IMG/VR virus record: IMGVR_UViG_3300010354_000273
Location: 1-35,081 of that record
Reading direction: 5' to 3' (one strand)
Length of the DNA stretch: 35,081 nt
Origin: a virus
This document shows, piece by piece, positions 15,001-35,081 of the stretch (positions are counted from its first letter, which is position 1; the number at the start of each line of letters is the position of its first letter). Made by a program: the position numbers and the translations under genes. The notes under the pieces were generated by a model that saw nothing but the letters and a program-made list of their open reading frames with translations, was not told where the DNA came from and searched no databases.

Positions 15001-16073
15001 GCTTTTCCAGGAGATACTTTTACTGCTAAAAGATTTTCGGATGGTGTATTCCCTTGGTCAGTTCTTTGGGAAGATGAAAATACTCCATCAGAATTCAATC
15101 CATCACTCAAAGAATCTGAAACATCAATGTCAAAAGAATCTACGGAATAATTACCAGATTCTTCATATGTTCTCTTTGCAAAATATTCTTTTACTAAAGA
15201 ATATGTGTTTGAATCTTGAATTTTTTTAACTACACCATTCGTGATTCTTAAAATCTCAATAAAGTTTTTATCATCAGTATCTGATATTCTTTTCTTTGTT
15301 AGAGATGCACTTATTTTTAATCTATCTGCTCCTGGTGCTGCATAGTTGGAGAATCCTCTAGCATTATCATATAGACTATTATCTTCTTTAGCATCAACTA
15401 GAGATTCTGAAACAAATAGACCAACTCTATATGATGGAGTATTGGTATATTGATCTAAAATTAAAGTATCATCACTTACATTAACAAAGTGTCCTCTAAT
15501 AAAATAAATTCCTTTAGATATTGAAACGGAAGATGCCGTAGAAGTTGCATCTTGACTGATTAAACTTGCAAAAGTATCACCGCTAGAAATGGTTGTGTTT
15601 CCATAGGTTAAATTTTCTTGAAGAATCAGTGTTTCCCCATCTGTAAACTGACCCTCTTCAAAGGATGAATTTGATGAGGTATATCTTACATATAAAGTGT
15701 ATGTATTATCTTCGGATTCAGAATCAGTTATAACATTTTGAACAACAGCATTTAATTCTGATGTCTGTCCTTTTATTCTTTTGCCAACCAGTTGCTTAAG
15801 ATATAAACCAACACTCAAACCTACATGTGTTGGATTTATTTTAACTGCATAGTATTGTGGATTATATGTTACATTTCCTGGAACTACTACAGAACCATCT
15901 TTAAAAATATGGCTTCCAAAGGATTCAATCTGATTTTGTAAAATTGACTGAAGAGTTGTGAGTTCTCTAGACTGAACTGGAAATCCTGGTTTAAAAAGAA
16001 CCCTGTAAAAATTTTTATTGGGATCAAAATCGTCATAATATGGGGATACATTAAGATTGGTTTTTTGTGACAT
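9009..16073 (-). CDS. DUF4815-family giant baseplate/tail structural protein
   Basis: 2354 residues. The N-terminus (N-V-S-P-Y-Y-D-D-F-D-P-N-K-N-F-Y-R-V-L-F, then Q-S-R-E-L-T-T-L-Q-S-I-L-Q-N-Q-I-E-S-F-G-S-H-I-F) is the DUF4815 signature, a phage tail family. Other recognisable parts: D-P-L-S-Q-T-F near 1547, opening a beta domain (F-L-T-A-V-D-L-Y-F-S-G-K-D); two glycine-tyrosine repeats near 1790 and 1838; a R-G-V-N-E-T-T...H-S-T-G-D module near 1955-2012; several G-E-x-x-x-G-x-x-S-G/S-A modules; S-P-V-I-D-L-S-E-A; and a C-terminus ending R-F-R-D-L-R-A-I-A-L-A, typical of phage baseplate/tail proteins. It lies directly after gp8, where T4 has gp9-gp12, so a peripheral baseplate or fibre-anchoring role is inferred. 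TAAAGATG junction with gp8; no strong ribosome binding site. Confidence 0.85.
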   Translation of the reverse strand: MSQKTNLNVSPYYDDFDPNKNFYRVLFKPGFPVQSRELTTLQSILQNQIESFGSHIFKDGSVVVPGNVTYNPQYYAVKINPTHVGLSVGLYLKQLVGKRIKGQTSELNAVVQNVITDSESEDNTYTLYVRYTSSNSSFEEGQFTDGETLILQENLTYGNTTISSGDTFASLISQDATSTASSVSISKGIYFIRGHFVNVSDDTLILDQYTNTPSYRVGLFVSESLVDAKEDNSLYDNARGFSNYAAPGADRLKISASLTKKRISDTDDKNFIEILRITNGVVKKIQDSNTYSLVKEYFAKRTYEESGNYSVDSFDIDVSDSLSDGLNSDGVFSSSQRTDQGNTPSENLLAVKVSPGKAYVRGFDVEKTATTILDLDKPRDTASVSNSSISFEMGSLLKVNNVSGTPIVGIDNNHIIYLNSKRKNSTTVGAGDTIGKARVYSYSTPSTYQNASSSWDLYLYDVQTYTKLTLNVQLTSGQCPETSYIKGLNSGASGYVVGNPSGNVINVQQTSGSFSVGEQILINGSTANSVTISEIKVFGVQDIKSVFQDAAEVGLSTSFVADSFLQSKIAKNFAATDSLVISATGIATCAGKNFVGIKSDTIIRYQLSGNSLETFNRVQNVSADGLTLTLASVSNVTGVCTGTLPSSTVTTTFSLGVPSIQNEENSFLYAKLNSNNVSDVNLSTSDLTVRRQVTGKSTTSTGTLSLTLADVGITSAYFEPYNSERYGIFYKNGTIDQLSSDKVSLSSNSTVVTFTGLTPNQTNVVVNATVKKNSVTNKQKLYVRSTKLEVNKSSSGISTSIAGLSSSTTYGLRVEDEEISLNVPDVVKVLSVYESVNNGEILLDKLTFASGLGLDTESILGEKITGATSGAIAQIVTRKSSTEIEFVYLNSNKFVFGETVRFEESGISGGIAAISEGTYINKTQDFVLDKGQKEQYYDYSRIVRKTGAVVPFRRLLVIFDHYRVPTNDAGDVYTVKSYDGQRYKNDIPKLRSGTRASDVLDFRPRVSDFTNTSVSPFAFSSRNFAAAGSNPTLVVSPNETSTVSYSYYLPRIDKVSLNKNGEIVITKGVSANNPKEPSSIEEAMDLATIKLPAYLYNSDDVEVYLYDNKRYTMRDIGNLETRINNVEKLASLTLLELNTKTLQIQDADGLSRFKSGFFVDNFDNTNFIDIENSDAKVCIDTNNEDNELRSDVSFYSLKSQISPESSININTADFSTNLTLQDSNIKKTGDLITLNYEEVSWTNLEQSFATKEETINPFGSSNYNGFVKLTPSSDTWVRTINSENGVISRTQSNWENSYVSNLSPSSISSDKFRSRNVEFRASGLTPSTNYYSFFAGNSNIDIIPKLLKITMSSGTFQSGETVYGYVGGIKVAAFRIANYNHKTGSYSNPTTTYSTNPYSANATLSAYSSSSSVLNIDTYSLADDADGRFYGYTPSGMKLVGATSSAQATVGTQSLTTDSVGDLVGCFFIRNPLQNPAPSTTFRVGAKTFKLSSSSTNSTSSTVTSTETTFYGSGIVNASVYSESLVVRKSPPALPLNALRKDPLSQTFRTDNDGGFLTAVDLYFSGKDSTEKVFVEIRETDIGGTPKDKIIQDFARVGVEPSGITTSSNGATATKVTFPSPIYLQPNKQYAISLSCPSSDDYKVWIAESNQATVATQNLPDAQQTIYSNQYVGGNLFKSQNGSIWSPSVYEDLKFKFYKANFTSTSGTAYFHNPSLSIGSTFAEIDVNVPVLINNPIKTLPRKLNVGIVTTYALGTILQPGAKIGEGNAFGYVEFVGGNIGVVSTTNVGVGYSNGTYSGVPLYSITGSGSGATATVTIASNRVATVSIANTGSGYRVGDLLGITTSSVSQGRDATISVQSVPNIDKLFLTNVSGEEFTDNQVLSYYQGSTQVSLAGTVTLGQSVVPSDLYTGKVFEVLHYNHGMHSNSNIVNIRGVLPNTSGEALTANITSTNTTISIANTSNFTSFEGSTVSASNPGYILVNEEVIEYTSVGSNTLSISERGVNETTIRNHSTGDLIYKYEINGVSLTRINNSHTMPTNSKLRSERGIDRYHLEFDRSDKSSGDTMLSFTNESTLGGPNCRATQNIQFSEIIPQFNIISPENTSINSLIRTVSGTSAGGSEVSFIDQGYEDVSLNQVNEFSTPRIVCSRVNESNRLSSLPRNKSLTLGIRMETTNSNVSPVIDLSEAATFVFSRNRLNKPILNYVTDPRSNQLTDDPHSSVYISNRIDLAKPATSLKVLLTAYRDASSDFRVLYKLFRSDSSEINQTYELFPGYNNLTDIDGDGFGDTVINSNLNDGSSDAFVRSSNDNEFLEYQYTADDLEQFNGFIIKIVMSGTNESYTPRFRDLRAIALA

Positions 16074-16075
16074 CT

Positions 16076-17632
16076 TTAGAATTCCAGTATGATTTTAATA
16101 TCTTCTTTTTGACGAGGGTTTCTAGAAACACGAGGTCTATTATCAAGATAGATAATTTCCCCTGATCCTTTATTTATTTCAGGAAGAGATATACCATTAG
16201 TAAATTCTGTTGCAAGATTAACTCTCTTTGTTTCTGTAACAGTTGTGGTTATACCAGTGAATGTTGAATCAATAGATGCACTAAAACTATTTGAAGAAGT
16301 AATTGTACCGCCACTTATACTAAAATTAACTTTTGTCGCCTCAGAAAGAATAGATCTAGAATCTCTCTGATCATATGAACTTTGATTATAATATAAAGAA
16401 CGATCTGTAAAATACTTTAATACTTTTGTCTCAGTATCATATGATGCAATGTATCCAGTTGCAGTTCCAACACCAGTGATAGTTTGATAAATCCTATTAC
16501 CTGGAGTTGCATCTGATGGGTTTGAGACTGATGTTAGTTTCAAACCACCTAGATTTGAGAATTGATTTTCTGTAAAAATTGAAGTTGCCGATCCAATTCT
16601 TGTTGGATTTTTTACAATTCCAATCTGAGAAAATCTAGTATCAAGAGGAAAATCCTTAGTTGAATCATCAAAACGAGAATAAATTAAAACTCTGTCAGTT
16701 CCTAACTCTTCATATAGATTAAATCCATGACCTTTTGATGGTGGAATAATTGGAATCAGGTGTGCAAATTCTGTTGCTCCAGAGTTAATAGTTGATAAAT
16801 CTACCCTACCGTAGGAGTAATTTTTCCCACCTGATGAAACTGTAACATCTGTAATCTTTCCACCGGTGACATCAACAACAACTCTACCACCTTCACCATC
16901 TCCAAGAATATCTAGTTCAGCGTCTGTTGTATTATATCCAGAACCTTGATTTTCAATATAAACTTTTTTGATTTGATTCTCGTTTACTGTAGAGTCTCCA
17001 TTTTCTCTAACAGATTGAATTTGAGCATCGGTTGTTGTTGACCAGTTATTTGGAACTGGAATATATTCAATAGAATCAAATTTAATAATGTCGCTAGGAG
17101 AAACTGTAAATAGGTATTTCCAAATATATCCGTCACCACTTTCACCAGCTCTTGATGGTTCTAGATCAATAAATGATGGTTCGTCTTGAGAAAAATTTCC
17201 AGCAGGATTCGCTACTGAAGATCCATTATCAATACAGATATAAACTCTGTAATCACTATTCATTACATAATAATTTGCATCATATAATCTAGTTGAATTA
17301 GTTTGGGGAGAAGTATTGGATATGCTATAATCATGGCGATACATTTCATAAACTGTACCTTGTCTCCAATCTACTCTTCTTACTAATCTACGAATATCAT
17401 TAGATGTAATTTTTTTACCAAAAATTATAGTATCTTTTACATGATTTAAGTAATTAAAATTGTCAATAGGATTTGGTGTATTTTCATCCCATGATGTTGA
17501 TCTACCAAAACCAACTGCATTTGGATTTGGTAAACTTAAAAATACATAATAAGAATTACTTGGATCACTGACAGATTCTACAAAATTATTCGCATTTAAT
17601 ATCCTAAATTGATCTGTTACAATTGCTGCCAT
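16076..17632 (-). CDS. gp8: gp8 baseplate wedge subunit
   Basis: 518 residues, longer than T4 gp8 (334). gp8 is a dimeric wedge component linking gp7 and gp10 in T4. The N-terminal half carries the family pattern: D-Q-F-R-I-L-N-A, Y-Y-V-F-L-S-L-P, V-D-W-R-Q-G-T-V-Y-E-M-Y-R-H-D-Y, Y-V-M-N-S-D-Y-R-V-Y-I-C-I-D-N, E-S-G-D-G-Y-I-W-K-Y-L-F-T-V-S-P-S-D-I-I-K-F and Y-I-P-V-P. Two glycine-tyrosine repeat units (Q-G-S-G-Y-N-T near 232; G-G-K-N-Y-S-Y-G near 270) lie in the middle, possibly part of an insertion. A consensus late promoter lies 18 bases upstream of the start. No Shine-Dalgarno is visible in the short leader. Confidence 0.9.
   Translation of the reverse strand: MAAIVTDQFRILNANNFVESVSDPSNSYYVFLSLPNPNAVGFGRSTSWDENTPNPIDNFNYLNHVKDTIIFGKKITSNDIRRLVRRVDWRQGTVYEMYRHDYSISNTSPQTNSTRLYDANYYVMNSDYRVYICIDNGSSVANPAGNFSQDEPSFIDLEPSRAGESGDGYIWKYLFTVSPSDIIKFDSIEYIPVPNNWSTTTDAQIQSVRENGDSTVNENQIKKVYIENQGSGYNTTDAELDILGDGEGGRVVVDVTGGKITDVTVSSGGKNYSYGRVDLSTINSGATEFAHLIPIIPPSKGHGFNLYEELGTDRVLIYSRFDDSTKDFPLDTRFSQIGIVKNPTRIGSATSIFTENQFSNLGGLKLTSVSNPSDATPGNRIYQTITGVGTATGYIASYDTETKVLKYFTDRSLYYNQSSYDQRDSRSILSEATKVNFSISGGTITSSNSFSASIDSTFTGITTTVTETKRVNLATEFTNGISLPEINKGSGEIIYLDNRPRVSRNPRQKEDIKIILEF
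16171..16178 (-). promoter_or_regulatory. Candidate late promoter (AATAAATA) within gp8
   Basis: Minus strand AATAAATA about 100 bases upstream of the DUF4815 gene, inside gp8 coding sequence. It fits the NATAAATA form described for cyanophage late promoters. This word is frequent by chance in AT-rich DNA, so support is weak. Confidence 0.3.
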
Positions 17633-17663: not shown

Positions 17664-20600
17664 TTATCCAAGGTCTTTTCTTAGTGATCCAGTATCTCTG
17701 AGTCCAAATCCACGTCTCTGTAGTGTTGGGAATGTTGTTAAACCAGAATTTACAGTATATCCAGAAACTGCAACTCCAATAGAAGATGTGGTTCTTTCAA
17801 ATCCAGAGAGTCTTCCCCAAGAGAATCTTCCTGAAATCAAGTTCGGCATTGTGTGAACACCACTAATGTTTGTAGTTGATAATACATTACTTGTTATAAT
17901 TCCTGTCAAATTATCTCTAGTGATTGAGTGAATCTTGTAGATATTATCAGCAAATGTTGATCCTATACCAACCAAAGTAGAATCACTACTATCAATTGAT
18001 GTTACTCCGTGGCCAACTGTAGTATCGAAAACATATATTGGATAATTTTCAACCAAAGAATCAATATCAGAAGTTGAATCATAAAGAACATGGAATGTTA
18101 GAGCAAGAGGATTTCCACCAGTTCCTGTGCTAGTTGTAATTCCTGTAATAATTCCACTAAACCCTTGTACGAACTCAATTTCAGTAATAATTTCGCTAGA
18201 AAGATTTGGTGTTGAAATCGTAATATCTGGTGGATGAGTTGAGGTATAACCAGAACCTGGATTGGAAATACTGGTTAAAGTGACAATGCCTGCAGAAGAA
18301 ACAAACGCCGATCCAATCGCAATAGACTGATTTTGATATTTACCAAAATCAAATGACCTTACAAGAGCAACAGAATTTGATGCATTCTTACTTAATTCAA
18401 TCTTACCATTTGATCCGCTAGAAATTCCAATGACAGTTGTTGAAGTGTCAATAACATTTGGAATGGATTTTAAAGTCTGACCAATCTTAACTAATGATGT
18501 GTCAATGCCAACAATTACATCTGAACCTATTCCCAAATATCCACCTCTTTTCTTAATATCAAATTTGAACACTGTACCAATACCACCAATTGGATTTCCA
18601 ATTTTCAAATCAAGAATTGATCCTGGAACATATCCACTTCCACCATCAAGAACTGAAACCGATGTAATATTTCCTGCAGCAGAAACATTTGCTGTAAACG
18701 CTGCTGAAACTGGATCATTTCCACCTTGAACTAGTAAGGCAGAAAAATCTCTAATACTAATTGCAGATTCATTCTCTTCATAATTAAAGAATTGTGCATT
18801 ATCCAAGAAAATTTCAATGTCTGAGGATGAGAAATCTCTAATAACTTTTGATGTTGGGAATACTAATCCTTCAAGAGAATCTCTCACTTTGGATTGCTCA
18901 TTGTCATTCAATAATAAATCTCTTTTTTGTTTCAACCAATCAACTGGTTTGTAGTTTACACTATCAATACCATCTCCAAGATAAATTCCAGTTTGAACAA
19001 GATCTGATGAAAGAATATCAGAAACAATTCTATTGTCTTGACCAATTGTCTGTGGAATAAAGTCATTATTATTAATTTGTAAAGTATCTCCACGTTTGAT
19101 GGTTTCATTAACATCAACTTCAATACTATCTTGATTTCTTGTTCCTCTATAGAAGAAAATATCTACCTTGTCATTTGATTTTGGTGCTTCTTTGAATGAT
19201 AGTGTTGTTCCTCCAAAGAATTCGTAAGAAACTCCAGGTTCTTGCATTACACCATTTACATAGATCAATAGAATTGAATCAAGATCAATTAAAGATGAAT
19301 CTATATCTGAATTATCTTTTTGGAAACTTAATAATTGATTATTCTTATAAAGAGGGAATCTTGTTCTTGTGCCATTTTGTAGTGAACTAATACTATCAAT
19401 AAAATCAAATTCACCCAATTGCCACGATGCAAATGAATCGACAAATACATCTGTTACTGTGAATTGTAATTCTTCAGCTGGTGAAGGTAATTTTCCATCA
19501 GTTACAAGACCTACAACTTTAAATACATCGCCAACTCTGAAAGAATATCCTGGTTTTGTTATTTCATATGACCTAACTTCAAAGAGTGTAGATCCTATTC
19601 CAGTTGCAGCATAACTTGGTCCAATATCAATTGTCATTGATAATCCAATTCCAGTTTGAGTAGTATTTCCAATTCCTAGTCTAGAAACACCAATCACTGA
19701 AAGATTTTCATATGATGGATCATTTATTTCAAATACAGGATCTGTATATCCAGAACCACCATTGTTAATTGTTAGTGCTAAAGATCCACCAGCTCCAACT
19801 ACAGCCGATATATTAGCGCCAGAACCAGTTGAATCAGAAACTCCAATTGAAACTGCAGTATTGTATCCAGAACCAAAACTTAATTTGCTGTAGTATGGAT
19901 ATGCAGTTCCCTGTCCAACATAAGTATGTGGAATTGTACTAACTCCAATATTAACATTAAATGTAGTTGCAGAAATAATCCCAACAACTGGGAAAACATT
20001 TCCTAATGTTCCATCTGGGAATATTGTGGTTGTTACGCCAATGTGAGCTGATGCACAAGAGAATTCTAAATTTTCAAGATAAACTTCATCCTCAGAAGCA
20101 TCAAATGGATGATTAGTAGAAGTTGTAACTTCAAGTATTCCTGTATTATTATTATAAGTTGAGGTACTAATTTGATATGCCTGACCATAAGTTGGAATAC
20201 CAACAATATTTGTAATTGCACCTCCAGTAACTTCTGCTCTTAGTTTTGCACCAATTAAAGGTGCATACCCTAATCCACCTGTTTGAGCAACAGAAAGAAC
20301 AACACCACCTCTAGGAAGTTGATTTTGGTTGACATCAGAATCTATGATGATAATATCATCAGTATTTGGTCTTCTAACTCCAGTAAATGTTACACTAGAA
20401 ATACCAGTTAAAGGTGTTTCTGCAAAGGCATAGTTATTTCCAATATTATTTGTGGTGTCTGGAGTTTGGAATACGTCATTTATGAAAACTAAATTACTTC
20501 CTGCCTCTAGACCAATAGTGTTTTGTCCTTCTCTATAAACAGTGAACGTTTGTCCAATACCATTAAATTCTAAGGAAATATCATCATAAATTTTATTATT

Positions 20601-23600
20601 TGTATAATCTTTGCGTAGGTAAACTCTACCATTAAATGATGATTTTGGTAATGCAAGATTGCTAGAATTCAATCTATCATTATTGCCTTTACCATCTGGT
20701 GCCTCAGTAAAATGAATCTTATTTCCAACAATATTGTATGCACCCTTATATATTCTTGCGACACTTCCATCAGTGTGAGTAGTTGCTGATGATCCAACAA
20801 ATCCTCTAGAGACCTCAATAATTGGAATAGTACCGATTCCAGTGATTGGTCCTGAAGAAGTTGTACCTAAACCAACATTTTTAATATTTAAGTATTCATT
20901 ATCTATTTTTAGAATATCTTTTGGTCTAATTGAAGAAATTCCGCTCAATCCTAAGAACGTTACTCCAACTCCAATCGTTGGTTGGTTATATTGTAACGTG
21001 TAAGTCAGTGGAGTGTACATTAATGGATATTGTGTTACACCATCAACTGTAATTAATGATTTCTCAAGTTTTTTCTTCATTTCAAGTTTATGGCGATTGC
21101 CACCACCAACTGAAGTAAATGTAAACCCAACTCCACTTCCACCAGCAGTTCCAGTAATCTTAAATTGATCCTTAGAAATTCTTATTGCATAAACTGTAGA
21201 TGGGCATATATCTGTAGTAATTCCAGTTGAATAGGTCTTTCTAAAAGTAGATCCGATAGAAACACCATCAAGAGTCAGTGCAAATGATTGATCTGTCGAA
21301 TAATAAATTCTATTTGATCCCTCTGGTATTGTTTCTGTTGAGGTAATGGAATTAATTCCAATAGATGTAATTGTTCCTAATCCAGTATTATCACCAGAGA
21401 ATATCCCAGCACCTACAGTTAAAATTGTGGTGTTTCCAACTCCTGTAATAACTGTTGATCCACCAGATACAACATTACCAACAAAGAACGTATAATCAGT
21501 ACTAATTCCAGTGATTTTTGTTGTGCTAGAAGGAACTGACTGACCAAAAATAAGAGTATCTGTAGATATTCCAGTTGTTGCTGCAATACCAGTAACTGTT
21601 GAGAATCCAGCAATAAAATCCGCAGTAAAAAATAATCCTGCGACGATTGTCTCACCGATTCCCATTGGTTGTGGATTAATACCAATCAATGTTGAATCTG
21701 GAGTATAGATTAATTCTTCACCAGTTTCAAAGAAATGGTTGTCAATTGAAAATACTCCAGTTTCGCGGTTTAAGGTAGAAGTAGTATTTGGATTAAAAGT
21801 CTTCTCAAAAATTGGAATTCTATTATAGTTAAGATCAAAATCTAATTTATCTTTTCCAAAGTCATTTATTGAACCATAGAAAGCATTTGTTATATTTTCT
21901 ATCGCATTCCCATAAACAAGAGAATCTGGAATATTAAATTCGTCAATATCTGAGTAAATGAATTGATTAAATGATTGAACAACAATATTATCTGAAGAAT
22001 ATTCAGAATCTGGATAGAATTTAATAATAACATTCGTTCCATCCATTTCTGATCCAAATGTACCTATTCCAGTTTCAGACCCAATAGTTATAAATGGAGC
22101 TTGTTGTATACTTGTTCTAAGTTGATCGGCAACAACAAACAAGTTATGAACGGCAACGGTTGATCCTGCAGAAACTTTTATAATAGACTTTAGAGAAGAA
22201 TCAATAACACTATCAAAGGATAAAACTGTAGAAATGCCAGAAGTAATCTCATATTGAGAATCCATTCTTGCAGTTCTTTCTGTTCCAGGAATTTGTCCAT
22301 CGACAAGATATCTAAATGTTCCAACACCAACACTAGTGCTTCCAATACCAACAGTTTTTGTCTTAATTCTTAAATTATTATTGCTATTTTCATTACTAAA
22401 TGTTAATGAAATAACTCCACCACTAACGTTTAATCCAAAAGTTCCTAAGTAACCACCAGAAACATTAGTATTCTTAGTGTCAAAGTAAAACTCTGCTAAA
22501 TGTGTATCCTGCCCATCATAGTGTCCAGCAACTTCAAAATAGTTTGCCTCATTAGTTGTTGTATCAAGAATGTGTGCAGAAACATAAACTGTATCATATT
22601 GTGATGAAAGTGCTTGGAATATGGTTGTACTTATTCCAAGTAATCCAGATCCAGATGCTGGTCCAACATTTTCAGTCCTAGATGAAAGTCTGGTGAATCC
22701 AATCTCAGTAAATCCAATTCCAATGCTAGTTGTTTCAGTGCTAAATGATTCTCTATAAATTTTCAAATTATAATTGAAGTCATTTGGATTTGCTGGAGTA
22801 AATCTTAGAACAGGATCTCCAACATCACCAAATTCTCCAGAAAAATCTCCAAGTTTTTGATCAGTGAATAGATCAACCTTATTTAATGTATATGTATTAT
22901 CAAAATTATTTAAAACAACTAATTCACTAAGTTGAGAACTTTGCTTATCTTCATCAATGATTTGAATAAGGAATTTTGAATAAAAATCAGTAATTGGATA
23001 CTCTACAGTATCTGTAAATATATTTTTATTAAATTCAGAACTAGAGAATCGTCCACTAATATCATCAATTTGCAATACTCTATTTGTTCTACACTCGATA
23101 TAGTCAGATAATTTTTTATTTTTAAAGGTAATAAATCTGGACGAATTTGATGATGGATCATAATCCAATACTAGATCAAAATTACTAATAGTATCAACTC
23201 TTCTTTCAGAAATAAAATCTAGGACTGGTAGTAAAGAAATTGAGGATCCAATAGAAACACTAGATGTTGATACAATTTCAGTATCTGCAAAATTCTTCAT
23301 CCCGGAAGGGTGTACAAGGTTATTAACCTTGTCAATCATCTTCACGAATTCAATGGGGCTTTTTATTGTATATGAAAGATTTTGATAGTAATCATTATCG
23401 GGTATTACTTGGAAATCAAAATTCAGTTTTCCAATGTCATCTTTCCAATCAAATTCTCTTCTATTGGAATAGTTTATATTAAATCTATTTTCAAACTTAT
23501 ATACATTATTGATAGTTGCATAATTGCCAGAATTATTACCTTTGATAATATCACCGATTTTTATTTCAGAATCTCCATTTACTTTAATAAAGTTACTTCT

Positions 23601-26600
23601 AACTACAGATGTTACTAAGTCTGAGGATGAATTATTAATTAATAATCCTTCACCCTCAAAGAAAAGACTTGGTACTCTATTGATAGAAAATACTGGATAG
23701 TTTTGATCCTTAACAATTGAATTAAAGGTAGTTTGAATAGTTACTGGAGTTCCAGCATTTTCTGTAAACTCTCCAATATTATACTTTAAAATTGCTGGAT
23801 TTGAGTTTGTAAATTCAACAACTTCAAAGAATTTGTATCCATTATCAGCAGAATTAAATCCTGTTCCTGGAGATGTTATAACTCCAAGAGCATCTGTAAA
23901 ACTTTGTTTTTGTATTCCCTCTACAAAAATTCTATCTCCAACCTCAAATGGTGGGATGATAAATCCATCAATAGGAGGAGTACTAAGTTCACACTCAACT
24001 ATACCGCCAGTATAAGATAAAACTCGTCCAACTTGAACGCCATTGCTATTATTAATTGCAAAAATTCTATGAGAAACATCATCTAGACCTTTTGGTTCTT
24101 CAATAACATCAACGGAAATAATAGTATTTCCTTTAAAGTTGGCAACCAACAATCCACTGTTTACAATAGTATTGGTATATTGATTTACCACAACCAATGA
24201 AGGTGCTGAGATGTAATTTTTACCACCATCAATAACATTTACTCTATTAATTTTTTGTGACCCTTCTAAGGTCAATAGTGTGGGAATATCTGCTTGAGGT
24301 CTTAAAGTCTTATCTGATGGATATTCAAAACCTTCATTTATAATTCTATATTCATTTAATTTTCCAATATTTGATGTATTTGCCATTAAGATTGCATCAG
24401 TACCAACACTCGTTGATGAACCTGTTGATAATCCAACAATTCTTGGAACAATATTGTAATTAAATCCGCCAGAAATAATATTAACATCTTCAATTGGACC
24501 AGATGCTGAAAGTGATGATGTAGAATATTCTAAAGCATCACAATCTTCAAAACTATACACAGTTTTTTCTGGAACTTCTTGAAGAGAAATATTAAATGAT
24601 GTTGAACCTATACCAAAAACTTTATAAGATCCATTGTATAAACTGTCAGTATATAAAATTTCTGAATAATTTTTTACATCAGTATCAGGTTCTAATACAT
24701 CTCCATTCTTTTCAAAAGAATAGTACAACTTAATAGGAGTAGAACTATCATAATTAACGGTAATTGCCGTCGTAACACCAGAAACTATAGTTTTTTGAAT
24801 ATTAAATGTATCCGTAGATCCTGTTGATACATATTCGTTGGTCAAAGAATTGTCATAGTAAAGTTTGAATTCATAATCCAACAGTGAAGAATCTGATACA
24901 TCAATTACAAGTTTATTATTCTTAATAACACTTAATTGTGGGTTAATTGAACTTATTTCTTGATTTGCTCCACCAGAACTTCCAATACTGACAACTATTG
25001 GTGGATTTGCAAATACATCCGAATAAGTTTCTGATAGTTTTATATTATCATCATCAATTCTATAAACATAATATCCGCCAGTTGAAAGACCACTAGAAAT
25101 TAGATCGTATGCGGTATAAAATACCTTTTGACCAGAAACATATCCATGATTTGGAATACTGATTTGATTTGTTGATGTATTAACTCTATCTGAAGTAAAT
25201 CCAACTGGATTTACTAAAAGTTTTTTGTTATATGAATCATACTTTACTCTAATTTTTTCTGAGGACCCTACCCCAACAGAAAGTTTTGGTTTAATTGTTA
25301 ATTCAACAACATCATTATCACTCAAATTATGAACTGTTGATATTGCAACGGTAGATTTAATTCTCTTTGCAGTAGCACTTATCTGATTATAAGTTGTTTC
25401 AAATGAATATTCATAATTATTGGATGCATTAGCAGTAAAGAAAAGTCCATTTGTTGTGGATGTTAATCCAACCTGAGTTGTTAGACCAATGAAATCTTTA
25501 GATTTGTTAATTACATAAACATATTGACTCAATCCAGAGAATGGGACATTAAATGTTGATCCGCCAGAAGTATCTGATGCTGTTAATGCACTCGATGCTA
25601 CGGGAATTGTAAGTAATATTCTCTGATTATTTTTGAATGGATGATTTGGCAAATAGATGCTCTGAGTTGGTACAGAGACTGTTTTTGGAGAATTTCCAAT
25701 GTAGTAATTTACAGAAGTCTCTACACCAGTATTAATACCAACACCAACGGACTCAACTGGATTGAAATAAACTTTAATATTTTTTCTAGAATCAAAATAT
25801 TCACTAGTTAGTGGAATTGTGAAAGAATCTGAGAAATAATCGACAATAGCACCAGAAGTATGCGCTGTTCCGGTAAGACCTCTTTTTACTCTTAAAATAT
25901 TATCAGAATCAAACTTATTAAGAACAGAGAACATTTCTGTCCCAATACCAATTGTTGTGCCAGATCCAACTAGAGAACTAATAGTAGAAACGTATATATC
26001 TGTTACTAAACCAACATTAGATGGAATGTCCTGAACTAATGAGGTTCTATCTGAAGAAACTCCTATTACGTGAGATTTGGAAAGATTTTCTACAAATGTG
26101 GACAAACCAGTAATGGTTATATTGTCTCCAGACAATAAGGAGTGATATCCTGCAGTATGAACTCTTACAGTATTTTTATCTTGCCACTCTATAATAGAAT
26201 TTTCGAAAATATTGTAAGTGGTTTCTATATTATTAATAGAATATCCTTTTATTTTTGCTACTTCTGCAGAAGCACCACCGCCTCCAGTATTTTCATTTTC
26301 AAATGTTAGTAGATTTCCAACCTTATAGTTAGATCCTGGATTTATAATAGATATTGAATTAATTTCTCCATCGGATACAGACTCTACTGTAGTAACCTGA
26401 TTTAAAAACTTATTAGATTCAAATATAAAATCATTGCTAGAATCATCTTCATTTATTCTATATGGGAAAGTATTTCTAACTAATTTTGATCCATTAAAAT
26501 CAAATGATTGATCTAAACTATTTGGTAGTGGTTCTGATTTAAAAGTATCACCAACAAAGTATGGAAAAACTGGTAAAAGTTTTCCACTTGGGAAAGCAGT

Positions 26601-29600
26601 TGCTACTCCAACATAATATGCGTAAGTTCCATTTGGATATTCTGGAGTTTTGGCAAATCTACCATTGTGTTCATCAAGATGTCCTGAATTAGTATACTTA
26701 TAGTCCTCTATAAAGAATCCAGTATCAAATTCATTTATTGGAGGTCTATTATAAACATTAGATGTTGAAGACTCATATCCAGATTCTAAACTTACAATCG
26801 TCGAATTATTATCTTCTGGATCTGAGTATCCAAATGGTCCATATATTGGGTTTCCATCGATGGCCCACCCAATAACTCTAGAATGTCCAGTATCTGATTT
26901 TGGATCTAAAAATTGAACTCCCTCTCTATCTGTAGAATAACCAACCACTCCATATGATAGATTGTCCTCATATTCGGTCAGTATTTCGTCTGAGAATCTA
27001 GAAAAATTATTGACATTTAGATATCTGACAGAAGATTGTAATACTGCGTTTTTCCCAGCAGATATCACAGAAATTGATGTATTTTTATCTTCATAATTAA
27101 CACCTTGGTTGATTATGATTACATCCTTTATAACTCCATTTTGAACTACTGCTCTTAGTTGAGCACCAGATCCAGTTCCATTTACTTTTAGGTTCGGGGC
27201 AGCAGTATAATATTTTCCACCACTCTGAACTTCTACTGCAATTATTCTTCCTGCTTTTAAAATCGGTTTTAATTCGGCACCAACACCATTTCTGATCGTT
27301 ATTGACGGATCTTTATGGAAGTTTATAATTGTAGATCCATAATTAGTCCCCTTTTCATAAAGGTATGCATCAACAATCTCCCCTCTAACTTGAGGAGTTG
27401 CAACAATTGTTCCAATTCCAGTATATTCTGCATTAACAACAATTTCTATAGGAGGGTATTCAAAAATTTGATATCCTTGTCCAGTCGATTCAAATTTTAC
27501 AAATTTTCTTCTATTAAAGTCAGTTGTTGCAGCACCAATTGCATCTGCCAATTGGAAATTGGAATTATCTAATTTAATAATGCGATATTGGTTGGAAGAT
27601 GAGAGACCAACAATGTTTGAAGTTTCATAAGAATAATTAATTAGATCACCATCTTTAAATCCATGGTTTTCAAAAGTAACTTTATCAAGTTGAGTAGATA
27701 TTCCAGTTGGTTTTACACGTAATTTTCTATTTTCATATCCACTTCCAGAATTGAGAACTTTTATTTCGGAAATTACGTTTTTTGGTTCATATAATCTAAA
27801 TTTATGAGTTCCTCCAGTGTTAATTGTTGTGAAACCAACAGTATTAATACCTGCTAGATAATCTTGCTCAGTCTCATATAGGTAAATTGATCTTGTGTTT
27901 ATAATTTGTGGATAATAAACTGATCCATTAACAAGATATCTTTCTTGGTCAGTATTTGAGAATTTAAATGATCCTATCCCTAAAGGTAAATTACCTGCTG
28001 GATTATATACAATTCTTTCGCCGTCTTGTAAGTTATGTGGACCATTAAATGTAATGGTTTCATTAGAAATATCTACACCACCAGTTGCACCAATTCCTGC
28101 TTGATTGCCATTGAATTCAATTTCTCTATATTGCTTTGACAATAAAGCTTCTAATTCTGCACCAACACCATTTCCACCAGAAAGAGTTACAGAGAGAACT
28201 CTATTAATGTTAAAGTCTTGAGGGTCCACAATAACACTTTTTAAAGATCCTCTAACGACAGGTTGTGCTAGTGCCGTTGTTCCAAAACCAACTGGATCTG
28301 ATATGACAATTGTTGGAGGATTAATTACATCATAATCTTCCCCACCATTGTAAATTTTTAGAGAATCAAGTGGTCCATAGTAGATTCTATCATTTGATTT
28401 ATAGTTTATAATATCAACACCATTGATCAGTTTTCCAATTGCTCCAACTTCAGTCGGAACGTTAGAATCTGCTTTTGTATTTGGTTCTAATGGGAATTTT
28501 AGTAATGATTTTTTAGGATATATTGATTTATTGTAATGCTGTAATAAAGTAAAACTATGATTTGAAGATTCTCCATATCTACCAAACTCAACAAAACTTT
28601 GTGTTGCAATAAATGATCTTGCATTATAAAGTCTTATCTTATTCTTTCTTCCAGAATCCTCCAGAACTTCAACATAATATGTTTGTCCAAAGACAAGATT
28701 TGGAAATACCTGATCATCTCCATGATAAACTACAGCATCACCAGTGATAAAAGGAACGTCATCATTGAATGATAGAACTGAATATAAATCTGTTAATGGA
28801 TTATAATTTTGGAAAATATCATCAAGTACTGAGGTTGGTGAGACGCTAATATTTGCTGTAGATAATTTTTTAGTTATTTGATAACTTGGAAGAGAGTTTG
28901 ATGCGACATACATATACGCATCATTTTCAATATAAGTGTTTTGTACGTTTGCAAGAATGCTAGAATTGCTTAATGTAGTGTTTAATGAAGAAGCGTAATT
29001 ATATCTTCTTCTAATGCTTAATCTTCTATCAGAATTGACACCAGTAATATTTTTATTTAAAAATACAACTCTTGGTAGTGTTTGTTCTGGTCTATTTGTT
29101 ATTGAAGTTACAATCGCATTTTCTAATACAATATTCTCAGAATTTCTATCTAAAATATCTACAATATCACCGACTTTTAAACTAGACTTATCTGGTACTT
29201 CAAAAAGAATTAATTGATTGTTGGTAAAGGATTCAATTTCATATCTAGATCTAGTATTATAGATCCAAGTATTAAATGAAAACTGCTTTTTGTCTTTATT
29301 ATCATTTACAATTTTTTGACCAAGATTTTTTACAGAAAAATTATCACCCTCTAAAAGACGAGTAAAATTATCAACATCCTCAATACCAGACAAAACTCCA
29401 GTAATCCTTAATTCAACTTTTTTACTCAGATTTCCATCTTCATATCCATAAATGATGTCATTAGATCTAATATCTGATGATGTAGATATTGCAGTTGTTA
29501 CGCCTTCACATCCAAAAAACTGATTAATACTTTTATCAGTATATGTAATTGTATTTGATCCAGAAATCAAAGTTCCAGATTCTGCAAATCCTATTGTACT

Positions 29601-30581
29601 ATCTACTGTAATTACAGATGATCCAATAGGTACATTATCAGAAACAATAGTTTTAGGAGTAATTTTAAAGGTTCCTTCGACTAAACTCTTTTCATCATAT
29701 CCAGAAAAGAGTTGTATTTTATAAAAAGTTTTATTAGATCTTGTTATAATTTCAACTTCAGAGACTGGTCCAGAAGCAGTGTTATCAATACTTCTAATTA
29801 CTTGCCCGACTAATTTATTAGGATCTCCAGAAATTACTTCTGTTACTAATACCTCTCTACGAATAAACTCTGCATCAGAAGGTTTTAGAAGAAAATCTTC
29901 AAGATTTACAACCTTTGGTGTAATACCATAAAGAACATTAAATAAGATTCTGAAAGATTCATCTGTTCCTTTGGAAAGATAAAAACTACGAGCGTTCTTT
30001 ATAAAATTATTTACATCAAGAGTTGGTACAAAATCAACATCTTCAAATCCTGGTGCAAGAAGATATTTTAGTTTCTTATAAAATTCTTTTAGAAATAGAG
30101 CACTTAAATTATGAACTCTTGTCTCATTTGAATGTGAGGACGCTAGAGTTGATTCAAAAATAAGTTCTTCTGGATTCGTCTGGTTTCTATAACTTGATAT
30201 TCCACTAAAACCACGTACACAACCAGTGAAACTATTGGTTGTAATACCAGTGTATGTGATTATTTCATTATTAATTTTGAATAGACCATACTGACTTGGA
30301 AATCCTTTTGTCGACTCAACATAAATTGTGGAATCGTTAGTGGAAACCGAGTTAGTTAAAGTAGTGATCCCTACAATAACTTCTGGTGTTAGATTGTTTA
30401 AATTTAGGTATTGATCTAAATTTTCAGCAACATCAATTGGTCCTCCCTGGAATTCCTGGGAGATATAATATTGTTTTAGAAAATCTACAGTTTTTGGTGA
30501 CTCGCTAAGTAAAAATTCTGGTAACTGATTCTCAATAATTTGCTGTACTTTTACTCTAGCGTCAAAACCAGTTGTAATCAT
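17664..30581 (-). CDS. 4305-residue virion structural protein in gp7 position, with YHYH-like domain
   Basis: One uninterrupted 12.9 kb frame. Its start has a GAGGAG ribosome binding site and lies 9 bases after gp6. The first ~280 residues (E-N-Q-L-P-E-F-L-L-S-E-S-P-K-T-V-D-F-L-K-Q-Y-Y; A-R-S-F-Y-L-S-K-G-T-D-E-S-F-R-I-L-F) look like a conserved anchor. I infer this is the functional counterpart of T4 gp7 (1032 residues, baseplate wedge) from position only. Residues about 1220-1345 form a YHYH-like domain: G-W-A-I-D-G-N-P-I-Y-G-P-F-G-Y, L-D-E-H-N-G-R-F, T-P-E-Y-P-N-G-T-Y-A-Y-Y, F-P-Y-F-V-G. Glycine-tyrosine beta repeats occur near 747, 945, 1075, 1120, 1420, 2042, 2120, 3437, 3572, 3610, 3980 and 4112. 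RG-GT-H modules occur near 80-140, 330, 1500 and 3220. It shows no transmembrane segment or protease/lysozyme motif. Confidence 0.85.
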   Translation of the reverse strand: MITTGFDARVKVQQIIENQLPEFLLSESPKTVDFLKQYYISQEFQGGPIDVAENLDQYLNLNNLTPEVIVGITTLTNSVSTNDSTIYVESTKGFPSQYGLFKINNEIITYTGITTNSFTGCVRGFSGISSYRNQTNPEELIFESTLASSHSNETRVHNLSALFLKEFYKKLKYLLAPGFEDVDFVPTLDVNNFIKNARSFYLSKGTDESFRILFNVLYGITPKVVNLEDFLLKPSDAEFIRREVLVTEVISGDPNKLVGQVIRSIDNTASGPVSEVEIITRSNKTFYKIQLFSGYDEKSLVEGTFKITPKTIVSDNVPIGSSVITVDSTIGFAESGTLISGSNTITYTDKSINQFFGCEGVTTAISTSSDIRSNDIIYGYEDGNLSKKVELRITGVLSGIEDVDNFTRLLEGDNFSVKNLGQKIVNDNKDKKQFSFNTWIYNTRSRYEIESFTNNQLILFEVPDKSSLKVGDIVDILDRNSENIVLENAIVTSITNRPEQTLPRVVFLNKNITGVNSDRRLSIRRRYNYASSLNTTLSNSSILANVQNTYIENDAYMYVASNSLPSYQITKKLSTANISVSPTSVLDDIFQNYNPLTDLYSVLSFNDDVPFITGDAVVYHGDDQVFPNLVFGQTYYVEVLEDSGRKNKIRLYNARSFIATQSFVEFGRYGESSNHSFTLLQHYNKSIYPKKSLLKFPLEPNTKADSNVPTEVGAIGKLINGVDIINYKSNDRIYYGPLDSLKIYNGGEDYDVINPPTIVISDPVGFGTTALAQPVVRGSLKSVIVDPQDFNINRVLSVTLSGGNGVGAELEALLSKQYREIEFNGNQAGIGATGGVDISNETITFNGPHNLQDGERIVYNPAGNLPLGIGSFKFSNTDQERYLVNGSVYYPQIINTRSIYLYETEQDYLAGINTVGFTTINTGGTHKFRLYEPKNVISEIKVLNSGSGYENRKLRVKPTGISTQLDKVTFENHGFKDGDLINYSYETSNIVGLSSSNQYRIIKLDNSNFQLADAIGAATTDFNRRKFVKFESTGQGYQIFEYPPIEIVVNAEYTGIGTIVATPQVRGEIVDAYLYEKGTNYGSTIINFHKDPSITIRNGVGAELKPILKAGRIIAVEVQSGGKYYTAAPNLKVNGTGSGAQLRAVVQNGVIKDVIIINQGVNYEDKNTSISVISAGKNAVLQSSVRYLNVNNFSRFSDEILTEYEDNLSYGVVGYSTDREGVQFLDPKSDTGHSRVIGWAIDGNPIYGPFGYSDPEDNNSTIVSLESGYESSTSNVYNRPPINEFDTGFFIEDYKYTNSGHLDEHNGRFAKTPEYPNGTYAYYVGVATAFPSGKLLPVFPYFVGDTFKSEPLPNSLDQSFDFNGSKLVRNTFPYRINEDDSSNDFIFESNKFLNQVTTVESVSDGEINSISIINPGSNYKVGNLLTFENENTGGGGASAEVAKIKGYSINNIETTYNIFENSIIEWQDKNTVRVHTAGYHSLLSGDNITITGLSTFVENLSKSHVIGVSSDRTSLVQDIPSNVGLVTDIYVSTISSLVGSGTTIGIGTEMFSVLNKFDSDNILRVKRGLTGTAHTSGAIVDYFSDSFTIPLTSEYFDSRKNIKVYFNPVESVGVGINTGVETSVNYYIGNSPKTVSVPTQSIYLPNHPFKNNQRILLTIPVASSALTASDTSGGSTFNVPFSGLSQYVYVINKSKDFIGLTTQVGLTSTTNGLFFTANASNNYEYSFETTYNQISATAKRIKSTVAISTVHNLSDNDVVELTIKPKLSVGVGSSEKIRVKYDSYNKKLLVNPVGFTSDRVNTSTNQISIPNHGYVSGQKVFYTAYDLISSGLSTGGYYVYRIDDDNIKLSETYSDVFANPPIVVSIGSSGGANQEISSINPQLSVIKNNKLVIDVSDSSLLDYEFKLYYDNSLTNEYVSTGSTDTFNIQKTIVSGVTTAITVNYDSSTPIKLYYSFEKNGDVLEPDTDVKNYSEILYTDSLYNGSYKVFGIGSTSFNISLQEVPEKTVYSFEDCDALEYSTSSLSASGPIEDVNIISGGFNYNIVPRIVGLSTGSSTSVGTDAILMANTSNIGKLNEYRIINEGFEYPSDKTLRPQADIPTLLTLEGSQKINRVNVIDGGKNYISAPSLVVVNQYTNTIVNSGLLVANFKGNTIISVDVIEEPKGLDDVSHRIFAINNSNGVQVGRVLSYTGGIVECELSTPPIDGFIIPPFEVGDRIFVEGIQKQSFTDALGVITSPGTGFNSADNGYKFFEVVEFTNSNPAILKYNIGEFTENAGTPVTIQTTFNSIVKDQNYPVFSINRVPSLFFEGEGLLINNSSSDLVTSVVRSNFIKVNGDSEIKIGDIIKGNNSGNYATINNVYKFENRFNINYSNRREFDWKDDIGKLNFDFQVIPDNDYYQNLSYTIKSPIEFVKMIDKVNNLVHPSGMKNFADTEIVSTSSVSIGSSISLLPVLDFISERRVDTISNFDLVLDYDPSSNSSRFITFKNKKLSDYIECRTNRVLQIDDISGRFSSSEFNKNIFTDTVEYPITDFYSKFLIQIIDEDKQSSQLSELVVLNNFDNTYTLNKVDLFTDQKLGDFSGEFGDVGDPVLRFTPANPNDFNYNLKIYRESFSTETTSIGIGFTEIGFTRLSSRTENVGPASGSGLLGISTTIFQALSSQYDTVYVSAHILDTTTNEANYFEVAGHYDGQDTHLAEFYFDTKNTNVSGGYLGTFGLNVSGGVISLTFSNENSNNNLRIKTKTVGIGSTSVGVGTFRYLVDGQIPGTERTARMDSQYEITSGISTVLSFDSVIDSSLKSIIKVSAGSTVAVHNLFVVADQLRTSIQQAPFITIGSETGIGTFGSEMDGTNVIIKFYPDSEYSSDNIVVQSFNQFIYSDIDEFNIPDSLVYGNAIENITNAFYGSINDFGKDKLDFDLNYNRIPIFEKTFNPNTTSTLNRETGVFSIDNHFFETGEELIYTPDSTLIGINPQPMGIGETIVAGLFFTADFIAGFSTVTGIAATTGISTDTLIFGQSVPSSTTKITGISTDYTFFVGNVVSGGSTVITGVGNTTILTVGAGIFSGDNTGLGTITSIGINSITSTETIPEGSNRIYYSTDQSFALTLDGVSIGSTFRKTYSTGITTDICPSTVYAIRISKDQFKITGTAGGSGVGFTFTSVGGGNRHKLEMKKKLEKSLITVDGVTQYPLMYTPLTYTLQYNQPTIGVGVTFLGLSGISSIRPKDILKIDNEYLNIKNVGLGTTSSGPITGIGTIPIIEVSRGFVGSSATTHTDGSVARIYKGAYNIVGNKIHFTEAPDGKGNNDRLNSSNLALPKSSFNGRVYLRKDYTNNKIYDDISLEFNGIGQTFTVYREGQNTIGLEAGSNLVFINDVFQTPDTTNNIGNNYAFAETPLTGISSVTFTGVRRPNTDDIIIIDSDVNQNQLPRGGVVLSVAQTGGLGYAPLIGAKLRAEVTGGAITNIVGIPTYGQAYQISTSTYNNNTGILEVTTSTNHPFDASEDEVYLENLEFSCASAHIGVTTTIFPDGTLGNVFPVVGIISATTFNVNIGVSTIPHTYVGQGTAYPYYSKLSFGSGYNTAVSIGVSDSTGSGANISAVVGAGGSLALTINNGGSGYTDPVFEINDPSYENLSVIGVSRLGIGNTTQTGIGLSMTIDIGPSYAATGIGSTLFEVRSYEITKPGYSFRVGDVFKVVGLVTDGKLPSPAEELQFTVTDVFVDSFASWQLGEFDFIDSISSLQNGTRTRFPLYKNNQLLSFQKDNSDIDSSLIDLDSILLIYVNGVMQEPGVSYEFFGGTTLSFKEAPKSNDKVDIFFYRGTRNQDSIEVDVNETIKRGDTLQINNNDFIPQTIGQDNRIVSDILSSDLVQTGIYLGDGIDSVNYKPVDWLKQKRDLLLNDNEQSKVRDSLEGLVFPTSKVIRDFSSSDIEIFLDNAQFFNYEENESAISIRDFSALLVQGGNDPVSAAFTANVSAAGNITSVSVLDGGSGYVPGSILDLKIGNPIGGIGTVFKFDIKKRGGYLGIGSDVIVGIDTSLVKIGQTLKSIPNVIDTSTTVIGISSGSNGKIELSKNASNSVALVRSFDFGKYQNQSIAIGSAFVSSAGIVTLTSISNPGSGYTSTHPPDITISTPNLSSEIITEIEFVQGFSGIITGITTSTGTGGNPLALTFHVLYDSTSDIDSLVENYPIYVFDTTVGHGVTSIDSSDSTLVGIGSTFADNIYKIHSITRDNLTGIITSNVLSTTNISGVHTMPNLISGRFSWGRLSGFERTTSSIGVAVSGYTVNSGLTTFPTLQRRGFGLRDTGSLRKDLG

Positions 30582-30590
30582 ATCTCCTCG

Positions 30591-32453
30591 TTACCTTGTT
30601 AACTTACCGTTTGAATAACTTGATCTTACAGGGAAACCAACACCGGAAATTTGCTCTCCAGATGATATAGTATCTTTAACCATATTTATAGTGCTTTTAG
30701 AAACATCAAAGACCAAATATAAATCTTTGAGTCCAATAACATCATTTGATTCTGGATATGCCTGTATTTCAATAACATCATTTGGAAGAGAAGTTGAAAT
30801 GATGTTAATGGTATTAATGATTATTTCACCTTTTGTGTAATCAATAGTCCCTATGGACTTTTTAACAATCTCATAGGTGTTTGGATCTATTGTTGGTTTT
30901 ACAATAGAAAGAACGCCAATATCACTGTCTTCTGTTGGAACATCGGAGAAATAAACAATATCAGGTTCTCCCGCAACTCTAAATCCAGAACTCTTAATAT
31001 TATATCCAGTAATATTTTTATGGAATTGATTTCCAAAACAAATCTCATACTGTGCAAAAGTATTCAAAACGCAGTTCAGATTTCTTCTCATCTTCACTTT
31101 AGTAATGTTTGAAGTAATCGAAGTGTCTACATTATCAATTACTTGAAGTAATTTACTATACTTAAATCTTCCACCAAATTTATTAAGATCGACAGACTCT
31201 GAATATTTACTTAATGAAGAGACAATTTTGGAATTCAAATCTTGTATATTGCTGACTCTCGATGAATTGTAATAGACATCACTGTCAATTTCCACATATA
31301 GTAGTTTAAGATCAATAATTTCTTGATTAATACCAGATATTGAGTATTGCTTCAAGTCATTTAAGATTTGATTTTTTGTAAAGTCTGAAATTGATGTTCC
31401 ATTCTTAGGTTTAATACTCAATAAAACCTTTCCATATTGTGGTGGGTCAAGTTCCTCACCACCTACAACAGAAACAGATTCTGTATTTGGATAAATGGTC
31501 TGAATAATTGCCTCATAGTCTTTTGCAGTAACTGCACGATACTGTGAAGAATATACTCTTGGAGCAAAGTATTTTACTGATTCGACCGATTCAATGCTAC
31601 TGCCGCCACCAGCGCGAGAAACAGTCGTAATATTTACTGTTCCTGATGGTGTAACAAGAAAATCATTACTATCTACTGTAGTACCGGAATATGAGAACAA
31701 TGATGGTCCATTTCCATCTTCACCATCGGTTGTAATGTAACTAACTCTAACTGTAGTTCCAGTTTCTAACTTTTTACCAATAATTCCATCACCAAAGAGT
31801 AATTCATACTTCTCGTCGGCAATTTCTTGTAAGAGATAAATCTCAGAATTTGAATTAACTGTAAAAATATTGTCTACTTTCTTATATTCACGAGTTCCAA
31901 CCTTGACTACGATTGTACTAGTATCAATATTTGGGTTGTTTAGGATAAAACGTTGATTTGTTGAATTATCTACTACAAATTCTTTGGTTAAATATATTCC
32001 CTGATAAACTTCTATATTATCAAATGTTGCCGTTCCACCGACATTATTTCTTGTAATGTCTTCTGGAATTGAAAATGTATAGGAGGTGTTGTCAACCGCT
32101 CCTATACACACCAAACCAGCTTTGAGTATAGTTTGTGCCGAACTACTAGAAGAGGTTATATTGAAGGACACAGATGCCTTTGCGGCACTTCTAGAACGAG
32201 GAACATAACCAACATTCCTTGCAAGAGAAACAACATTCTCTCTTAATGTTGCCGAATCCAAAAAGGATTCATTGACAATCATATTTGAGTTGAATGCTGT
32301 AATATATGTGTTATATGCAAGAGTATCAATCAGAACGGAGAAGTTCGATCCTTCAAAGTCAAAATCCGTGAACGTTGAGTTCGCACGGAGATAATCCTTG
32401 ATGGATGTTCTTATCTGATCAAAATCTAGGTTTGTAAACTTTGTGAAAGGCAT
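30591..32453 (-). CDS. gp6: gp6 baseplate wedge subunit
   Basis: 620 residues (T4 gp6 is 660). gp6 dimers form the inner ring joining the baseplate wedges and belong to the Mu gpJ-like family. Visible signatures: L-D-F-D-Q-I-R-T-S-I-K-D-Y-L-R and F-E-G-S-N-F-S-V-L-I-D-T-L-A-Y-N-T-Y at the N-terminus; N-E-S-F-L-D-S-A-T-L-R-E-N-V; Y-V-P-R-S-R-S-A-A-K-A; L-L-F-G-D-G-I-I-G-K-K near 217; Y-R-A-V-T-A-K-D-Y-E-A-I-I near 305; and P-P-Q-Y-G-K-V-L-L-S-I-K-P. The start follows the gp25 stop with one base between (TAATATG). The end of the gene contains a TATAAATA box that may drive the giant downstream gene. No insertion is evident, so the inner wedge appears conserved in size while outer components have grown. 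Confidence 0.94.
   Translation of the reverse strand: MPFTKFTNLDFDQIRTSIKDYLRANSTFTDFDFEGSNFSVLIDTLAYNTYITAFNSNMIVNESFLDSATLRENVVSLARNVGYVPRSRSAAKASVSFNITSSSSSAQTILKAGLVCIGAVDNTSYTFSIPEDITRNNVGGTATFDNIEVYQGIYLTKEFVVDNSTNQRFILNNPNIDTSTIVVKVGTREYKKVDNIFTVNSNSEIYLLQEIADEKYELLFGDGIIGKKLETGTTVRVSYITTDGEDGNGPSLFSYSGTTVDSNDFLVTPSGTVNITTVSRAGGGSSIESVESVKYFAPRVYSSQYRAVTAKDYEAIIQTIYPNTESVSVVGGEELDPPQYGKVLLSIKPKNGTSISDFTKNQILNDLKQYSISGINQEIIDLKLLYVEIDSDVYYNSSRVSNIQDLNSKIVSSLSKYSESVDLNKFGGRFKYSKLLQVIDNVDTSITSNITKVKMRRNLNCVLNTFAQYEICFGNQFHKNITGYNIKSSGFRVAGEPDIVYFSDVPTEDSDIGVLSIVKPTIDPNTYEIVKKSIGTIDYTKGEIIINTINIISTSLPNDVIEIQAYPESNDVIGLKDLYLVFDVSKSTINMVKDTISSGEQISGVGFPVRSSYSNGKLTR
30683..30690 (-). promoter_or_regulatory. 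Candidate late promoter (TATAAATA) inside gp6
   Basis: Exact TATAAATA on the minus strand about 100 bases upstream of the 4305-residue gene, within gp6 codons. Plausible as a dedicated promoter for the giant gene, but a match inside AT-rich coding DNA may be chance. Confidence 0.45.
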
Positions 32454-32454
32454 A

Positions 32455-32856
32455 TTATCTTGTTGCCTCTAGGATATATGTAAACTGTTGACGAGGAACT
32501 TCTAATCCCACGATCGTAAATGTTATATTAATCTCAAAAGCATTCAAATCTGGTCTTGGATCTACGACAATTCGTGGATTTTCGACTCTTGGTTCGTAAT
32601 TTTCAATTGCAATCTTAATCTGTTGCTCTAAAACCGATGCAGTACCGAAATCAACAAAATCGAACAGACTTGTTTTTACATCTGCACCAATTGTGGGATT
32701 AAAAAATCGCTCACTTGGGATGGTTTGAACAAGATTTCGAATTGATCTCCTAATTGCATCCTCATTTTTAAGTACAAGAATATCCTTGGTTACGGGATGC
32801 ATATCAAATGATAGGCTAATATCCTTAAATCCTCTGGATATTCGTTGTACCGACAT
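32455..32856 (-). CDS. gp25: gp25 baseplate wedge subunit
   Basis: 133 residues, almost the same as T4 gp25 (132). It belongs to the GPW/gp25 family related to contractile-injection sheath-initiator proteins: it binds gp6/gp53 and the first sheath ring. Visible family features: G-F-K-D-I-S-L-S-F near the start, D-I-L-V-L-K-N-E-D-A-I-R-R-S-I-R-N-L-V-Q-T-I-P-S-E-R-F-F-N-P (about 25-54), which contains the conserved E-R and N-P residues, G-A-D-V-K-T-S-L-F-D, and I-A-I-E-N-Y-E-P-R-V at the C-terminal half. It is preceded by a consensus late promoter, with a leader of about 20 bases and no Shine-Dalgarno, and heads the gp25-gp6-giant gene unit. Confidence 0.96.
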   Translation of the reverse strand: MSVQRISRGFKDISLSFDMHPVTKDILVLKNEDAIRRSIRNLVQTIPSERFFNPTIGADVKTSLFDFVDFGTASVLEQQIKIAIENYEPRVENPRIVVDPRPDLNAFEINITFTIVGLEVPRQQFTYILEATR

Positions 32857-34969: not shown

Positions 34970-35081
34970 TGTTTTTATATAGCGAAAAAAAATTTTATAG
35001 TGCTTTGTAAATTTAGATGCCTTCCGTAACACTTTATAGCTTATGGGAGGTAGGGGGTTTTATATACGGGGGGGCATCACG

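Follow-up and report, generated by a model that had tools for sequence, protein, structure and literature searches.

The 12.9 kb gene in the gp7 slot of the window (a 35 kb IMG/VR virus fragment of 35,081 nucleotides, carrying T4-like phage genes for baseplate and neck) probably encodes the gp7 of a T4-like phage of cyanobacteria (Kyanoviridae type), with a split core, huge beta-rich insertions and peripheral decoration. The slot protein is a gp7 homologue, and not merely an occupant of the gp7 slot: it holds a conserved two-segment gp7 core, with the T4 domain V fold in the first segment and insertions between and after the two. It is probably a wedge protein with a very large peripheral decoration for host contact. 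Giants in this slot are known; a published analysis had denied them any kinship to T4 gp7.

The gene is real, a single uninterrupted frame of 4305 codons whose ATG is preceded by AACGAGGAGAT, and whose length at 32% G+C is too great for a chance origin (Table 1). Its neighbours in the baseplate operon are gp6, separated from it by 9 bp on the upstream side, and gp8, by 31 bp on the downstream side; gp6 is predicted to be its direct partner. A frame open from 30581 to 17664 between these two genes, as the original prediction had it, is borne out by the open reading frames and by Pfam and PHROG profiles, and the size, put at about four times that of T4 gp7 (1032 aa), measures 4.2 times. The nearest annotated relatives of the window are cyanobacterial phages. 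No RNA families or tRNAs were found in the window.

Table 1. Features of the window, with residues numbered along the giant chain or the protein named
Feature	Position	Strand	Size or residues	Remarks
gp25	32455-32856	-	133 aa	Pfam
gp6	30591-32453	-	620 aa	Pfam PF21379, E=2.9e-17; PHROG profile agrees
Giant gp7 gene	17664..30581	-	4305 aa	ATG start, no internal stop; PHROG 2885 'baseplate wedge subunit', E=0, residues 3-2983
N-terminal helices	30384..30563	-	residues 7-66	conserved in all marine homologues
Inserted beta-barrel module 1	30159..30365	-	residues 73-141	model, module search
gp7 core segment 1	29664..30131	-	residues 151-306	homologous to T4 gp7 ~729-812
Inserted beta-barrel module 2	29451..29663	-	residues 307-377	interrupts the domain V equivalent
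Large insertion	23442..29366	-	residues ~406-2380, ~1975 aa	at the equivalent of T4 gp7 ~851-862
YHYH (PF14240) partial block	26592..26897	-	residues 1229-1330	E=8e-26, C-terminal half only
gp7 core segment 2	23232..23441	-	residues 2381-2450	homologous to T4 gp7 ~865-892
C-terminal extension	17667..23231	-	residues 2451-4305, ~1855 aa	most variable part
gp8	16076-17632	-	518 aa	Pfam PF09215, E=7e-12; PHROG profile agrees
VrlC-like virion protein	9009-16073	-	2354 aa	after gp8
gp14-type neck protein	3109-4764	-	551 aa	PF11649 at residues 3-178
gp15 tail-sheath stabiliser	2063-3112	-		PF16724; extra C-terminal beta-barrel module, residues 246-310
Small ORF	34775-35032	-		weak MazE/AbrB-type antitoxin likeness (PF04014, E=0.004, below cut-off)

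A gp7 core in two segments

Two conserved segments of the chain (residues ~150-400 and ~2381-2450) match T4 gene 7 in the correct order. Profile A1, an alignment of 101 marine N-termini, finds in the whole T4 genome, searched in six frames, a sole match at E<=1, which is gene 7 (~730-758, E=4.6e-4); profile A3, the second single-copy segment (window residues 2381-2450), has gene 7 as its sole match in the T4 genome at E<=10 (~865-892, E=3.2e-4). Reciprocally, a T4-type gp7 core profile gives a single match in six of ten marine genomes, and each time that match is the slot gene (best E=1.5e-5); all ten retain both core segments. HHalign pairs window residues 195-290 with T4 gp7 ~729-812 (probability 88%, E=3e-6, as a single comparison). 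The individual T4 matches are short (28-30 columns) with modest E-values, and the P-SSM4 and Mosig profiles alone align weakly to T4 by HHalign; the strength of the gp7 identity comes from the way in which independent segments, their order, the reciprocal searches and the fold agree, each piece being modest. Stronger T4 E-values obtained by iterative search were set aside, because T4 sequences enter that profile.

Profiles are needed for this link, since a single-sequence phmmer search of T4 gp7 against the marine frames found nothing. Profiles A1 and A2 have no match to PDB sequences up to E=10, a profile of residues 7-66 has none to T4-type frames, and the Pfam models of T4-specific gp7 domains have none on the giant chain. 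No counterpart of T4 gp7 residues 1-640 was detected in it by Pfam, HHalign or profile searches; this T4-specific N-terminal part is also absent from short marine gp7, and was not treated as defining.

Structure models, which the original prediction had proposed for the N-terminus, point the same way. The AlphaFold model of residues 1-431 is of moderate quality (pLDDT 72, pTM 0.38), and Foldseek ranks T4 gp7 (5iv5_BJ) first of 350,542 chains against it (E=1.7e-3), while VIA superposes residues 240-399 on T4 gp7 765-845, skipping the beta-barrel at 307-375, with Z 8.9, a value of about 9 being only slightly above common background. For the 875-aa compact homologue of a pelagiphage, whose model is poor overall (pLDDT 54), KP1-type gp7 is at Foldseek rank 1 and T4 gp7 at rank 3, and the two types occupy VIA ranks 1, 2 and 4. 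The fold recovered at top rank from these models is that of domain V (trifurcation-type).

By Pfam, T4 gp7 has a helical domain (643-689), domain V (766-861) and domain VI (920-1012). In the giant chain, helices are predicted by the model at residues 5-64 and 159-218; residues 7-66 are without significant T4 match, and are probably the equivalent of the T4 helical domain (643-689). Core segment 1 spans the end of the T4 helical part and the start of domain V, whose equivalent in the window comprises residues ~237-306 and ~378-405. Core segment 2 reads DYYQNLSYTIKS...HPSGMKNF. The spacing between the core segments is ~50 residues in T4, ~300-460 in compact marine forms and ~1500-2700 in cyanophages. 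Within the C-terminal extension, the last ~60 residues are conserved.

The modular, beta-rich make-up described earlier is supported, and so is the N-terminal conservation; the anchor, put at ~280 residues, runs in fact to ~400, and a second one at ~2381-2450 had been missed. Nor does the giant 'replace' gp7, as had been proposed, because profiles, HHalign and structure models all place a gp7 core inside the chain. An unrelated fibre N-terminus with a separate gp7 elsewhere, which would have overturned the assignment, did not materialise: in ten complete marine genomes the core profile matches in the slot only, besides short copies of the beta-barrel module, and a gp7 located elsewhere was rejected on the lack of a second full core there. 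The slot protein is also unlikely to be gp53, because Mosig has a separate gene annotated Gp53.

Giants in cyanophages and compact forms

Cyanophages rank with the ocean's most abundant viruses, and a giant gene in the gp7 slot is an already known kind in cyanobacterial T4-like phages, to which the window's gene belongs by its slot and by its full-length PHROG profile match. With its first 1000 residues as query, 462 phage records were matched, all of them Synechococcus, Prochlorococcus, 'Cyanophage' or unlabelled marine. The slot protein has 5195 aa in the Prochlorococcus phage P-SSM2 (annotated gp7, baseplate wedge), 3895 aa in the Synechococcus phage S-SRM01, 7312 aa in P-SSM4 (larger than the window's), 6076 aa in Syn9, 4458 aa in MED4-213, 3533 aa in ACG-2014h, and 3048 aa in S-PM2, where a separate 175-aa gene follows in the slot; several cyanophage giants carry the annotation 'gp7/baseplate wedge initiator'. 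Compact slot homologues of 874, 896 and 1016 aa are found in SAR11 phages (HTVC008M, Mosig) and in the Methylophilales phage Melnitz. Giant size (3048-7312 aa, against 874-1016 aa) therefore tracks cyanobacterial hosts in this sample: it is a cyanophage family trait, and no peculiarity of the window's phage.

The order gp25-gp6-slot gene-gp8 is seen in complete relatives, with extra genes before gp8 in some. For example, Mosig and Melnitz have tail fibre, tail assembly chaperone and unknown genes separating the compact gp7 from gp8 (loci L167, 18078-20654, and L447, 9718-12443), a stretch that in most cyanophages is filled by the giant chain only. In KF156338 (15992-26593 and 28567 onward), the gp7 and VrlC annotations appear swapped, the slot gene with the gp7 core being named VrlC and the gene after gp8 being named gp7. 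In S-SKS1, the large stretches that hold the giant gp7 and VrlC homologues (9824-16821 and 23771-31131) have no annotated genes, and the giant gp7 frame is annotated only as C-terminal fragments.

According to a published analysis, cyano- and pelagimyophages have no T4 gp7, and VrlC appears to take its place (PMC7029224). By the present data, gp7 is found in the slot gene, with its core split by giant insertions, and VrlC is a separate protein encoded after gp8, distinct from the slot gp7.

Decoration and proposed role of the giant chain

The large insertion is made of GGxGY-type modules and the YHYH-derived block. The GGxGY-type module is a virion-wide decoration: gp8 of the window has one such module, and the VrlC-like protein carries the same family, common to giant gp7 and gp8. 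Five modules of this family (residues 195-459) are also seen in the gp14-type neck protein, and the beta-barrel module of gp15 resembles those in giant gp7. In a compact pelagiphage gp7 (locus L185, 4227-6851), a GGxGY-rich stretch at model residues 373-492 matches a domain of the T4 tail-sheath protein gp18 (3fo8; Z 8.2, 22% identity), and Pfam Gp18_dom_I has a weak match in HTVC008M; the decorating module may be related to the sheath domain.

The T4 virion has six copies of gp7, by which the outer pins of the baseplate are held (PMC3004832), and the (gp6)2-gp7 complex is similar to the (TssF)2-TssG complex of type VI secretion systems (PMC6300606). By analogy with both systems, each virion would carry six giant gp7 copies, and their core would associate with a pair of gp6 subunits, giving the (gp6)2-gp7 wedge together with the trifurcation carrying the outer baseplate. 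As the large insertion is placed just after domain V, its modules would be expected to project from each wedge at the outer platform, and might radiate from the outer domain as a peripheral skirt or arms that would hold or replace the outer proteins gp10 and gp12, make the baseplate more stable before contraction, and contact the surface of the cyanobacterium. Genes for gp7, gp10 and gp12 have been listed among the non-cyanophage core genes (PMC3037559); since recognisable gp10 and gp12 are missing from cyanophages, the decoration may stand in for them. The decorated outer wedge suggested in the original prediction is supported as an idea, and its role would be peripheral.

Could the slot protein serve chiefly as a tail fibre or for receptor binding, attached through a gp7-type anchor, with a wedge function that is secondary or belongs to another protein? 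In Syn9 the homologue bears the annotation 'putative fiber', variability is highest in the C-terminal part, and in the Mosig slot a short gp7 is followed by separate tail-fibre and chaperone genes, so that fibre functions could be fused into the giant. This reading is nevertheless unlikely, as Pfam and PHROG searches revealed no family of trimeric fibres or receptor-binding proteins, the conservation of both core segments extends to 10/10 marine genomes, and complete genomes are without a second gp7. Less likely still is a polyprotein-like chain, translated whole and then cut into several structural proteins: the separate 175-aa gene after the 3048-aa gene of S-PM2, and the several genes in the Mosig slot, indicate that parts can work as separate chains, but the core is spread across ~2000 residues, and cutting within the insertion would therefore separate its halves.

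The embedded YHYH-like domain noted earlier is confirmed, although as a C-terminal half only, by a PF14240 match of 91.7 bits against a curated cut-off of 25. In cellular YHYH relatives (Bacteroidota, Planctomycetes), the YHYH/HHH signature sits in an N-terminal half; this half is deleted in the gp7 copies, which share the C-terminal half with the family and keep one conserved His and the DG aspartate. YHYH domains have been predicted as tail-associated metal-dependent hydrolases (PMC7824862), and with its strong profile match and these two remaining residues the block could make giant gp7 a cell-wall-degrading enzyme of that type. This is very improbable: the signature half is gone, and an HxH-type motif occurs in 0/185 distinct gp7 blocks, the block and the 140 residues upstream being examined. 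Hydrolase activity is unlikely because the domain is partial and the signature absent in 185/185, and the best explanation, judging from the sequence, is a structural or binding module with no working hydrolase.

Among phage records, the block is almost confined to cyanophages: it occurs in 463 of 50,697, namely 457 labelled Synechococcus, Prochlorococcus or 'Cyanophage', five unlabelled marine and one other; the complete genomes of T4, HTVC008M, Melnitz and Mosig do not contain it. Returning to the decorated wedge, a more tentative extension is that the host-contact periphery is built into gp7 itself, six chains of ~350-800 kDa forming a skirt round a T4-type wedge, with the dead YHYH enzyme possibly recruited as a cyanobacterium-specific envelope binder. 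Such recruitment would explain the distribution of the block (462/463 positive phage records being cyanophage or unlabelled marine, with none in the SAR11/Methylophilales relatives tested).

Finally, an assembly artefact joining several genes, which the original prediction had named as a refuting outcome and which is conceivable for a frame standing on a single metagenomic contig, was rejected and is effectively refuted by complete open homologous frames in four independent IMG/VR contigs (4301, 4401, 4403 and 5567 aa), by the tiled coverage of the whole chain, each 150-residue stretch being spanned by homologues in independent records (fewer for the C-terminal 400 residues), and by complete isolate genomes of the same layout.

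Comparison with known baseplate proteins

The literature searched yielded no structure of the T4-type baseplate of a cyanophage. The location of the gp7 core fixes where the giant insertions must emerge from the wedge, the 874-1016-aa pelagiphage forms become the correct reference for this core, and the role of the decoration becomes a question answerable by a cryo-EM map.

The giant gp7 proteins of S-SRM01 and P-SSM2 occupy the same slot and are colinear with the window's over its residues 1-2978 (46% and 41% identity, respectively), sharing the core segments and the YHYH block; they differ from it by insertions and deletions within the C-terminal extension, at window residues ~2978-3456 and ~3946-4130. 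The compact gp7 of HTVC008M, Mosig and Melnitz has both core segments and the same slot, but far smaller insertions, and these genomes lack the YHYH block; in Mosig and Melnitz, unlike in the window, separate genes stand before gp8. T4 gp7 (1032 aa, 5IV5/5HX2) shares with the window's protein the domain V fold, the two ordered segments and the position between gp6 and gp8; its extra outer domains lie N-terminal to the core, whereas those of the cyanophage giants lie within the core and C-terminal to it.
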